This document shows, in pieces, positions 57,726 through 62,398 of a DNA stretch of 64,000 bases. The translations under genes and the position numbers were made by a program. The stretch's first letter is position 1. Each line of letters starts with the position of its first letter. The DNA comes from Lentisphaerota bacterium (GTDB taxonomy: Bacteria > Verrucomicrobiota > Lentisphaeria > Victivallales > UBA1829), in contig SUVR01000006.1 of assembly GCA_015061915.1 (NCBI GenBank), positions 62,001 through 126,000 on the forward strand. The letters are read 5' to 3'. Under the pieces are notes generated by a model. It saw only the letters and a list, made by a program, of their open reading frames with translations, made no database searches and was not told where the DNA came from.

Positions 57726-58631
57726 ATGAAAAAAGTGATGGTTATCGGCAGTTCCAATACGGATATGGTGGTCCGTTCGGCACGGATCCCGGTTCCGGGT
57801 GAAACGATTTTAGGCGGCAGATTTCTGATGAATCCCGGCGGAAAAGGGGCAAATCAGGCAGTCGCCGCCGCCCGGATGGGTGGTGATGTGACATTCATCG
57901 CAAAAATTGGAAACGACCTTTTCGGCAGGGAAACGCTCGCTGCGTGGAAGACGGAAAATATCAACACAAAATTTGTACTGACCGATCCGGAAGAACAGTC
58001 CGGTGTGGCACTGATCATGGTGGACGCCAAGGGGGAAAACTGTATTTCTGTGGCATCCGGAGCGAACGCAACGCTTTTTCCGGAGAATCTGGAGGATGCC
58101 CGCAGTGAGATCGAAAATGCGGATGTACTGCTCATGCAGCTGGAAACGCCGGTGGAAACGATCCTCTGTGCGGCAAAATGGGCAGCGGCAAAAGGTGTGA
58201 CCGTGATCCTGAACCCGGCTCCGGCACAGCGTCTTCCGGAAGAATTGTACCGTCAGCTGGCAGTGATCACCCCCAATGAGACGGAAGCCGAGATCCTGAC
58301 CGGGATCAAGGTCACGGATGAAGCCACGGCGGAAGCGGCGGCAAAGATCCTTTGCGAACGGGGCGTTCAGGCAGTGATCATCACCATGGGATCCCAGGGG
58401 TCTTATGTCTATACGGAAGGCAAAGGCGAACAGGTCCCGGTCCGTCCGGTGAAACGGGTGGATACAACAGCTGCCGGCGATGTGTTCAATGGAGCGTTGG
58501 CAGTGGGGCTTTCCGAGGGCATGACGCTCCGGGATGCTGTCAATCTTGCCTCGGAGGCAGCGACGGTCTCGGTCACACGGGTGGGCGCGCAGAGTTCCGC
58601 ACCCTACCGGAACGAATGTATGATCCTGTAA
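57726..58631 (+). CDS. rbsK: Ribokinase
   Basis: The 301-residue PfkB-family protein has the ribokinase N-terminus (GSSNTDMVVRSARIPVPGET), the GGKGANQAVAAARMGG loop and the C-terminal DTTAAGDVFNGAL (anion hole and catalytic Asp). It phosphorylates D-ribose at O5 with ATP. It lies 6 bases after copA and 63 bases before a sugar porter gene, suggesting that ribose is imported and used, while the link to copper seems accidental. Confidence 0.93.
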   Translation: MKKVMVIGSSNTDMVVRSARIPVPGETILGGRFLMNPGGKGANQAVAAARMGGDVTFIAKIGNDLFGRETLAAWKTENINTKFVLTDPEEQSGVALIMVDAKGENCISVASGANATLFPENLEDARSEIENADVLLMQLETPVETILCAAKWAAAKGVTVILNPAPAQRLPEELYRQLAVITPNETEAEILTGIKVTDEATAEAAAKILCERGVQAVIITMGSQGSYVYTEGKGEQVPVRPVKRVDTTAAGDVFNGALAVGLSEGMTLRDAVNLASEAATVSVTRVGAQSSAPYRNECMIL

Positions 58632-58641
58632 AAAATCAAGC

Positions 58642-58662
58642 CGGACAAAGGGGGTCCGGCAT
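58642..58662 (+). terminator. Hairpin between rbsK and sugar porter genes
   Basis: GCCGGAC/GTCCGGC with a 7-base loop. No T run follows, so it is more likely a spacer or mRNA-stability element than a strong terminator. Confidence 0.35.
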
Positions 58663-58694
58663 TCCGTAAAGAATCAAAAAAAGGAGGGAAGCCT

Positions 58695-59693
58695 ATGTTT
58701 TTTGTGGAACAGTACGGCTGGGCAGTATTTTTCTGCGTTATCACCATGCTCTGCTGGGGGTCATGGGGCAACACACAGAAGCTGGCGGGAAAAAGCTGGC
58801 GTTACGAACTTTATTACTGGGACTATGTGATCGGTGTACTGGTATTCAGCCTGCTGGTCGGTCTGACCTTCGGATCGTTCGGCAGTCAGGGAAGAGCCTT
58901 TCTTCCGGATTTGATACAGGCAGACTGGAGCAATCTTCAGAGCGCCCTGATCGGCGGTGTGATCTTCAATGCGGCGAACCTGCTGCTGGCGGCATCCATC
59001 TCCATTGCGGGGATGTCCGTGGCATTTCCGGTGGGGATCGGGCTGGCATTGATTCTGGGCGTGATCGTCAACTACATCGGCGAACCGCAGGGCGATCCGC
59101 TGCTGCTGTTCACCGGCGTGGTGCTGATCGCAGTTGCGATTCTGTTGAATGCAGGCGCCTACCGGATCAAAGAACAGAGCCGGAAACGGGTCCCCACCAA
59201 AGGGATCGTGCTGGCAGTGATCTGCGGTATTCTGATGGCGTTCTTCTACCGGTTCATCGCCGCCAGTATGTCGATGGACTTCACCGATCCGGCAGCAGGC
59301 AAGCTGACGCCGTACAGCGCCTTCTTCGTCTTTGCGCTGGGGATGTATTTCAGCAACTTCATTTTCAACACCATCGCCATGCGTTTCCCGGTCAGCGGCA
59401 GCCCGGTACAGTATAAGGACTACTTTGCAGGCACGAAAAAGCTCCACAGCGTGGGGATACTGGGCGGTGTCATCTGGGGGACCGGCAACATTCTGAGTCT
59501 GGTGGCGGCTGGCAGTGCCGGACCGGCGATCTCCTACGGGCTCGGTCAGGGAGCGACCCTCGTTGCCGCTCTGTGGGGGATCATCGTATGGCGGGAATTC
59601 CGCGGTGCCCCCAAGATGGCGCATCTCATGAACCTTGCCATGTTCGTGATCTTCATCGGCGGATTGATCCTGCTGGTCCGTGCGGGGATGTAA
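58695..59693 (+). CDS. GRP family sugar transporter
   Basis: The 332-residue protein has ten membrane helices and the GRP/ureide-permease-like pattern (MLCWGSWGNTQKL near residue 25 and AASISIAGMSVAFPVGIG). Such porters carry glucose or ribose with H+. Its place after ribokinase argues for ribose. AAGGAGGG precedes the ATG. A strong terminator follows at 59707-59748. Confidence 0.85.
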   Translation: MFFVEQYGWAVFFCVITMLCWGSWGNTQKLAGKSWRYELYYWDYVIGVLVFSLLVGLTFGSFGSQGRAFLPDLIQADWSNLQSALIGGVIFNAANLLLAASISIAGMSVAFPVGIGLALILGVIVNYIGEPQGDPLLLFTGVVLIAVAILLNAGAYRIKEQSRKRVPTKGIVLAVICGILMAFFYRFIAASMSMDFTDPAAGKLTPYSAFFVFALGMYFSNFIFNTIAMRFPVSGSPVQYKDYFAGTKKLHSVGILGGVIWGTGNILSLVAAGSAGPAISYGLGQGATLVAALWGIIVWREFRGAPKMAHLMNLAMFVIFIGGLILLVRAGM

Positions 59694-59758: not shown

Positions 59759-62398
59759 TCAGTGGATAATATCCAGCACAAGCTCGCCGAAACTGGAGGC
59801 TTCATGGACGGTGCCGCCACCCCAGCTCGACATCTCCCGAACCCGGGCGGGGACCATCTTTTTTGTCTTCTTATCCAGCCGTTCGGTATCGTAATATTTT
59901 CCCCGGACAGGCAGGAAAAGCAGCTTGTGATTTTTCATGGGATCCACCCCGATCTCGGAGAACGGGATCTTCACCACGGCGATCCAGCGATCCTTCTGCC
60001 GCAGGATGTTGCGCTCCCATTTTCCGTTCCAGGAGCTGTCGAATACTTTTCCATCGTACACCGCAATATTGCCCACATCGAAGGCGAACTGATGATACAC
60101 GCCGGTCCGGGAATCGCCCACAAAAAATTCCATGATATCGCCCCGGGGGAATGTTTCGCCACCATCGGCTTTCAACTTTGAGGGGATGAGTTTTTCGGCA
60201 TCATCGGCAAAGTTATCGAAGCGGATGTAAAGATTTTTCATATCGTGCAGCACTCGGACATCGGTACGGAATTTTGCTGTTTCGCCTTTCTTTCCATGGA
60301 CTTGGAACGGGGGCAGTTTCACGGCGGACTGCCAGCATGGGGCGTCCGGCTTGATCTCAGCCCCGGCAAAAAACGGCACCCGCTGGCTGACCCGGTTGTT
60401 GTTCCGGGCAACGCTCATCCAGCTTTCAAACTGTTCCCGATGTCTGCGGATCAATTCCCGGCTGACCGGATGCTGCGCCAACTTTCCGGCTTCCTCCAGC
60501 GCGGCACGGCAGGCTTCTTCATCGCCCGCCTCGAAAAGATACATCTGCGCCATAGTCTGCCCCTGATCCATGTAGATGGAGGGATAATCGCTGGCGTACC
60601 AGTTTTTCCGGATCGTGTCGTAATACCGTTTCATGGCGGGGGCGGCTTCCCGATACACACGGGTGATGAACTGATCGCGCAGGGCGGAAATATCGGCATC
60701 GCAGTCCCACCACAGACGCGCTATGCACCAGGCGGTGATGGCGGAATTATCCCATACCCCGATACTGGAGGAATGGTCCACGGGCCACTCGGTGTTCAGA
60801 TCGATCACGCCCAGTTCCCGACAGAACCGGAAGTCATCCTGCAGCACCTCTTCCAACGGTCTGGGGAAACCGGCGGCGCAGCCGTAATATTCCCGCAGCC
60901 AGACCATGGGGCTTGCCTTCGCCCATTCGGTCAACCGCTTGGTAACGCCGCCGTTGCGGTCAAGGTCACGCAAGGGCTTTTTGTTGTCCTTGTCATACGG
61001 ACAGAACTGGATCCGGATATTGTCCTCAATGGGGAACGGGGGCGCAACTGCGGTGCAGTAATAGGCGTAGGTCAGGATCGTTACATCCGGATGAGTCCGT
61101 TTCAAAAGGATGGCGACCTCGTTGAGAAAACGGAAGTACTGGGCAGACCGGAACCGGGGATCGTTGTTGCGGATCACAGTGCCATCCTTCAGCTTGATAG
61201 GCTTGAGACAGGGCGGACAGTCACAGACGGTCCAGCTGTCTTCGCAGGAAAGGTTCACGCCCTTTGCCAGCGGATTCCGGTTCAGGTGTTCCCGCAGATT
61301 TTTCATGTACGGTGTAAAAATCCTGCGGTTGGTGAAACAGAGCTGTCCGGTGGTGATCCGCTTGCCGTCCTTCATCACAAAAAAGTCCGGATTGGTCGCA
61401 AAATATTCTTTCGGGTGCAGGAACATCCGCAGACCGTGTCCGCCGCCGGCTGTGGGGTAATCGTTTGCCAGCGGAGAAGGCTTGTTGCTGCCGATCCGGC
61501 TGTGGGCGTTCATCCGGTTCCGGGCAGCCCATTCCGGTTCGGTACGCATACTGTGCACGGTAAAGCCGATCCCCCGGAGACGGGAAGTCGGCACGGAGCG
61601 GAACGAGGCATTTTTCACGGCAAGCGTGGGGATATTGCTGTAAACCGTCCCAACCGTCGGATCGGGCCGCAGCCAGATGATATCGGTATTTTCCTCCAGA
61701 AACGCATAGATTCCGTGGAGCGTGCCCTTGCTCCGGTTGCCGGAAATGCGGATCACATTCTTCTCCTGCCGGACCGCAAAACCATCGGTCTCCCCGATGG
61801 CGATCACATCTTCCGGCGAGTGGATCCAGCCGCCGCCGACAACCAGATTCAAGCGGTCAGCCGCCACGGTATGAGCAATGGGCAGTTCTGCGCCGGTGAT
61901 CTTTTTCAGCCAGAACTGAAGTTCTTTTGCGGCATACTGTTCCGTAAGATCGCCGCCTTTTTCCAGCACGATCTGCGCCACAGGGATGCCATCACGGGTC
62001 AGGATGCGGTCCTGATCCGTTCTGCCGTCCTTTTCATCCTCCGGGGAGTCGCTTGCCACATGGATCCCGAACATCCGTACTTCCTCCGGCAAACTTGCTT
62101 CCGCACGCTTGATCACATTCATAACATCCACTTTTGCCAGTGCCATATCGGTTCCGTGCCTGAATTGGAGCGTCAAACGATATTTTCCCCCGTCATTGGA
62201 TTCCGAAGACAAGTAGAGCAGATTGTCCAATCCGTTCATTTCCGCTTCGATAGGCGCCGCCACGGTGGCAATCACTTTTTCCGCTCCGGCACCCGGATAA
62301 GTTGCTGTAACAAAAACGGATGGCTGTTTTCCGCACATACACCCGCTCAAAACGATAATCCCGAAGACAGCCGCCGCAAGCAAAAGCACCCGTTTCAT
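59759..62398 (-). CDS. Lipoprotein fusing an RND efflux-porter segment to a DUF4838 glycosidase
   Basis: The 879-residue product has a lipoprotein signal (lipobox LSGC, C20). Residues 26-113 match the porter (PN1/PC1) domain of RND pumps such as AcrB: VTATYPGAGAEKV, MNGLDNLLYLSSES, LTLQFRHGTDMALAKVDV and LPEEVRMFGIHV. From about 138 a GH67-N-like domain (QIVLEKGGDLTEQYAAKELQ) leads into the DUF4838 barrel (NLSCEDSWTVCDCPPC, then YAYYCTAVAPPFP). The last 200 residues are a CBM9-like sandwich (NLYIRFDNFAD, DIMEFFVGDSRTG). It is probably anchored in the outer membrane and acts on glycans. No RND helices or other pump genes are near. Confidence 0.85.
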   Translation of the reverse strand: MKRVLLLAAAVFGIIVLSGCMCGKQPSVFVTATYPGAGAEKVIATVAAPIEAEMNGLDNLLYLSSESNDGGKYRLTLQFRHGTDMALAKVDVMNVIKRAEASLPEEVRMFGIHVASDSPEDEKDGRTDQDRILTRDGIPVAQIVLEKGGDLTEQYAAKELQFWLKKITGAELPIAHTVAADRLNLVVGGGWIHSPEDVIAIGETDGFAVRQEKNVIRISGNRSKGTLHGIYAFLEENTDIIWLRPDPTVGTVYSNIPTLAVKNASFRSVPTSRLRGIGFTVHSMRTEPEWAARNRMNAHSRIGSNKPSPLANDYPTAGGGHGLRMFLHPKEYFATNPDFFVMKDGKRITTGQLCFTNRRIFTPYMKNLREHLNRNPLAKGVNLSCEDSWTVCDCPPCLKPIKLKDGTVIRNNDPRFRSAQYFRFLNEVAILLKRTHPDVTILTYAYYCTAVAPPFPIEDNIRIQFCPYDKDNKKPLRDLDRNGGVTKRLTEWAKASPMVWLREYYGCAAGFPRPLEEVLQDDFRFCRELGVIDLNTEWPVDHSSSIGVWDNSAITAWCIARLWWDCDADISALRDQFITRVYREAAPAMKRYYDTIRKNWYASDYPSIYMDQGQTMAQMYLFEAGDEEACRAALEEAGKLAQHPVSRELIRRHREQFESWMSVARNNNRVSQRVPFFAGAEIKPDAPCWQSAVKLPPFQVHGKKGETAKFRTDVRVLHDMKNLYIRFDNFADDAEKLIPSKLKADGGETFPRGDIMEFFVGDSRTGVYHQFAFDVGNIAVYDGKVFDSSWNGKWERNILRQKDRWIAVVKIPFSEIGVDPMKNHKLLFLPVRGKYYDTERLDKKTKKMVPARVREMSSWGGGTVHEASSFGELVLDIIH
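62060..62323 (-). other. RND (AcrB-like) porter segment within the DUF4838 lipoprotein
   Basis: Encodes residues 26-113 of the fusion. The closest recognisable form is the AcrB/MexB stretch following TM1, with the same order of ATYPGA, MNGLDNLLY, SSxS, LTLxFxxGTD and LPEEV elements. It ends where the second helix or the PN2 region would normally continue. No frame break is visible at either junction. Confidence 0.8.

Follow-up and report, generated by a model that had tools for sequence, protein, structure and literature searches.

A porter subdomain of an RND efflux pump in a secreted DUF4838 lipoprotein: an apparently unique domain capture in a gut-type Lentisphaeria genome

A gene in a gut-type Lentisphaeria genome raises the question of how a piece of an RND efflux pump came to stand between the membrane anchor and the catalytic module of a secreted enzyme, a predicted surface glycosidase, and whether it could serve any purpose there. 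The gene lies near the end of the window, that is, the whole stretch of 64,000 nucleotides that was analysed (contig SUVR01000006.1, positions 62,001 to 126,000), and encodes a protein of 879 residues whose N-terminus reads MKRVLLLAAAVFGIIVLSGCMCGKQPSVFVTATYPGAGAEKV. Its parts follow each other in the order signal peptide, PN1 porter subdomain, linker, GH67N-like domain, DUF4838 domain and CBM9-like domain, and they were located in the window as follows.

59759..62398, minus strand: whole open reading frame of the 879-residue predicted lipoprotein, ATG start.
62339..62398, minus strand: signal peptide and lipobox LSGC, residues 1-20, with the predicted lipidated Cys20; from sequence, alignment with the sister-species orthologue (L006) and hydropathy.
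62012..62329, minus strand: inserted stretch, residues 24-129, 318 bp, in frame, its edges accurate to a few codons; from comparison with the sister species.
62045..62326, minus strand: PN1 porter subdomain, residues 25-118; from Pfam, phmmer and structure models.
62006..62050, minus strand: charged linker DSPEDEKDGRTDQDR, residues 117-131; from the full-length model (119-127 of low confidence) and hydropathy.
61703..61969, minus strand: GH67 N-terminus-like domain, residues 144-232, under the Pfam cut-off.
60617..61648, minus strand: DUF4838 domain, residues 251-594; from Pfam, conservation among homologues and Foldseek.
59774..60340, minus strand: CBM9-like domain, residues 687-875, under the Pfam cut-off.

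The lipobox occupies residues 17-20, follows a hydrophobic stretch and is the same in the sister species, so that, as judged by its sequence, the protein is a predicted bacterial lipoprotein with signal peptide, lipobox and cysteine all present. Genes for a ribokinase-like and a sugar-transporter-like membrane protein, named by sequence impression, run towards it on the plus strand (window 57726-59693), while past the end of the window, about 4 kb beyond the glycosidase gene, an adaptor gene is accompanied by a second HAE-type RND pump (G000:C21, L035, 7037-11319, plus strand).

The identity of the N-terminal segment appeared well established. With the whole protein as query, the Pfam model ACR_tran (PF00873) matched residues 25-118 with an E-value of 3.5e-21, which became 1.3e-22 when the N-terminus alone was used. 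The matched model positions were 40-132 of 1021, corresponding to the first porter subdomain only; no ACR_tran match was detected outside them, and the PN2, PC1, PC2, DN and DC subdomains are thus absent. A phmmer search against solved structures likewise retrieved chains of RND pumps, AcrB and MexB among them, with E-values from 3e-19 upwards, in alignments covering chain residues ~40-133. At the level of sequence, the RND match of residues 25-118 is far above chance. The original prediction had read the segment as PN1/PC1 at residues 26-113, directly after the lipobox cysteine: its PN1 assignment was borne out and its PC1 assignment was not, the domain was correctly recognized within limits that have to be widened, and the match begins five residues past C20. 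The core of that prediction, namely that a secreted DUF4838 lipoprotein contains a porter segment of the RND type, nevertheless holds (DUF4838 E-value, 8.8e-50).

Structure models agreed with this assignment. The first 124 residues of the mature protein were modelled with AlphaFold2 on an alignment of 30 pump PN1 sequences, which biases the result towards the pump fold; the model displayed the order strand-helix-strand-strand-helix-(helix)-strand, with domain pLDDT mostly of 86-90. No different fold emerged: in Foldseek, this model, whose alignment contains pump sequences, superposed on AcrB PN1 and AcrB-type pumps at ~1.0 Å over 94 residues. The sequence match holds independently of the biased model. 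In the full-length model PN1 formed a well-folded unit, most of which had a pLDDT of at least ~90; linker residues 119-127 fell below 50 and the catalytic module was well folded. It is thus confirmed that residues 25-118 form a PN1 porter subdomain, genuine and complete, of the kind found in HAE-1/AcrB-type RND pumps. Compared with HAE-1 pumps such as AcrB and MexB, the insert has the sequence and fold of PN1, but it follows a lipoprotein signal peptide, evolves faster and lacks the transmembrane helices as well as the PN2, PC1, PC2 and docking subdomains. A hydropathy scan of the whole protein revealed none of the twelve transmembrane helices of an HAE-1 transporter past the signal peptide, which is the sole strongly hydrophobic stretch (maximum 19-residue hydropathy thereafter, 1.1). 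As had been anticipated, no helix follows the porter segment, and since no other pump part is present either, the lipoprotein cannot pump.

DUF4838 (PF16126) matched residues 251-594 with 170 bits against a gathering score of 26.6, while the GH67 N-terminal model matched residues 144-232 with 21.3 bits, below its cut-off of 24.3, with no catalytic GH67 match, and CBM9 matched residues 687-875 under the curated cut-off. Residues C392, C394, C397 and E537, conserved across homologues, are all intact, so that the gene does not look dead. Foldseek placed the catalytic part nearest to GH115, GH84, GH67 and GH20 hydrolase folds; its predicted overall fold is like that of the solved structures of these families, but identity is only ~10-15% and TM-scores over the whole chain are low; the glycosidase function is a predicted one. 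The DUF4838 lipoproteins of other Lentisphaeria share the catalytic module, the GH67N-like and CBM9-like parts, the cysteine cluster and the glutamate, but they lack PN1, the present protein carrying 106 additional residues after the lipidated cysteine. A partial literature search yielded no description of a PN1-glycosidase fusion and found DUF4838 itself named in a single incidental paper.

The decisive evidence for domain capture comes from the sister species (G001), the sole other genome of the genus in the comparison, whose orthologue is cleanly devoid of the PN1 insert. This orthologue lies on a short contig, which also turned up independently among the records of a metagenome of water deer caecum; it shows 93.5% nucleotide identity and, as in the present genome, has an exonuclease gene for a neighbour. 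Signal peptide and enzyme are common to both genes, with 97% protein identity over 538 shared residues, and the single differing block consists of 106 codons, in frame. Where G001 reads CMCG-SDLLTKDG, the present gene reads CMCG-KQPS...TDQ-DRILTRDG.

Searches in more distant relatives indicated how rare the arrangement is. Across 41 genomes, DUF4838 homologues matched the protein from about residue 123 on, with a single exception at 95-596, and none over the PN1 part, whereas the separate matches at residues 25-116 were pump genes. In a comparison with 388 genomes of the phylum, only the present gene among the best ~150 matches listed spanned both the PN1 and the glycosidase parts, the other matches listed covering query residues 6-101 (pump-type) or 105-265 (glycosidases); a true fusion relative would rank at the top. 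The suggestion that other Lentisphaerota DUF4838 proteins be inspected for the same N-terminus thus yielded none with a PN1 part among the matches listed from the 388 genomes, and the combination is as unusual as had been supposed. Twenty short-frame PN1 matches were fetched order-wide, 19 of which start as pumps and are ended by contig ends or stops. Among the sampled relatives PN1 was otherwise found only in pump genes, and the fusion is carried by one genome of one species. It is a real and, so far, apparently one-of-a-kind domain capture. The twentieth short-frame match, an open frame on contig 93 of a further genome (G123, L097, 119-1375, plus strand), has the N-terminus of an RND pump, with membrane helix, PN1 and a little more, joined to a histidine kinase tail with receiver domain, probably as a misjoin or a rearrangement.

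Where the insert came from can be narrowed down. The closest PN1 sequences were those of a pump encoded on contig C10 in this genome, with 65% identity, and of its G001 orthologue, the PN1 of other pumps being ~50% identical. The tree grouped the insert with these two pumps (support 86/85), its branch measuring 0.9 changes per site and that of the pump 0.16; likewise, with other pumps as reference, 19 positions had changed in the insert only and five in the pump only. The insert cannot simply have been copied from the resident pump in recent times, since dS between insert and C10 pump is ~1.5 (near saturation) against 0.16-0.26 between the two species, and DNA identity is 64.5%. Two histories fit: either another, more distantly related pump within the lineage served as donor, or the insert was captured before the two species separated and later lost in G001. 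Foreign composition was also considered and is not supported; GC3 of the insert is low within the gene yet ordinary genome-wide, 23% of coding windows being as low or lower. Inspection of the junctions for direct repeats or a mobile-element signature returned 5-bp matches only, and the search for a phage or plasmid source found ordinary pump genes or unannotated places of <60% identity, with no relative on a viral contig.

The changes accumulated by the insert are unevenly distributed. Pumps have a hydrophobic residue nearly always at 30 alignment columns; in the insert six of these have changed, none of them to a polar residue, whereas 5.2 polar replacements would be expected under neutral change of the same extent (1000 simulations, P = 0.001). 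On the other hand, four of 30 positions that are at least 90% conserved in pumps have changed. The dN/dS of the insert against pumps is uninformative on relaxed selection, since distant pump pairs look similar at saturated dS. The insert is apparently held to its fold and no longer to all the needs of a pump, with its surface and some pump-conserved positions altered, while part of the core conservation could go back to a period when the domain still belonged to a pump.

Taken together, the data are probably best accounted for if a pump subdomain was captured in frame, in this lineage specifically, and serves, or is just tolerated, as a folded spacer linking anchor to catalytic module. A complete PN1 of ~94 residues together with the charged linker would stem from an HAE-1 RND pump belonging to the same lineage and would have entered a DUF4838 glycosidase lipoprotein a few residues past its lipidated cysteine. 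PN1 has a self-contained ferredoxin-like fold, from which we infer that it may fold on its own and act as a spacer or stalk, setting the catalytic module at a greater distance from the membrane anchor; PN1 would transport nothing and play no part in efflux. The captured folding domain envisaged by the original prediction is supported. The possibility that the insert is instead a neutral passenger, tolerated between anchor and enzyme and slowly decaying with no role, appears unlikely. In favour of it, the branch of the insert is faster than that of the pump, those four pump-conserved positions have been altered, and it is confined to a single species whose sister has none. The frame, however, is intact and all 30 core hydrophobic positions have been kept, even if some of this retention perhaps dates from before the capture. 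An assembly or binning chimera seems highly improbable. The source assembly consists of 31 contigs, and a relative has what is likely a chimera, though of a different sort (G123 contig 93), but two in-frame joins inside one gene, on a 140-kb contig, would be needed; moreover, both flanks are orthologous to the sister species, the composition of the insert is ordinary for the genome, and the assembly contains no identical source sequence (best, 65%).

Two further readings give the insert a binding partner. In the sections of PMC8277102 that deal with AcrB, the porter module is described as ferredoxin-like, with PN1 gaining a fifth strand by beta-augmentation in trans from another subdomain and lining the centre of the trimer. 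A free PN1 sheet edge could accordingly offer a pairing site to a further copy of the protein or to some other protein of the envelope, a doubtful proposal given that, according to the same sections, the AcrB trimer is held mainly by funnel-domain loops, which are missing here. It is similarly improbable that PN1 was exapted as a partner-binding or oligomerising module which positions the glycosidase lipoprotein in the envelope, with strand pairing via its pump-type sheet edge. The other proposal, that PN1 docks the lipoprotein onto a TolC/RND-like efflux complex, was the assembly role put forward by the original prediction; it is not supported, and we regard it as the least probable of all. 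The genome does have RND pumps, one of them with the adaptor gene found beyond the window, but this nearby pump is 37% identical to the insert and separated from the glycosidase gene by other genes. In addition, PN1 is distinguished from the docking subdomain of the pump in the cited sections of PMC8277102, the protein has no PN2, PC1, PC2 or docking subdomain, the fusion is unconserved, and pump-conserved positions have been changing.

With the spacer reading retained as the preferred one, this locus offers a clearly delimited natural case in which a single subdomain of a large membrane pump has been kept folded in an unrelated secreted enzyme, with an empty site available in a sister species, and the fusion thereby tests whether an RND porter subdomain can by itself be an autonomous module of folding. 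A partner-binding role, if true, would be a novel, non-transport use of the RND porter module; otherwise, the fusion documents the gain of spacers by glycosidase lipoproteins.

Some of the pump genes retrieved for comparison showed peculiarities of their own. In a MAG of the same family (G005), the gene on contig C97 (L099, from about 2149) is an otherwise intact RND pump gene of ~1030 codons with six in-frame stops, all TAG; a second pump on C28 (L081) contains one TAG, as does a DUF4838 match in the same MAG. This suggests that TAG is read as an amino acid in the G005 genome. Other pumps have mixed residues at the corresponding sites, and none of the tRNAs found in this MAG, which is 78% complete, has a CTA anticodon. 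In another genome, a pump gene (G064:C37, L100, about 2515) carries an in-frame TAG within its PN1, loses its frame further on and is apparently a pseudogene.
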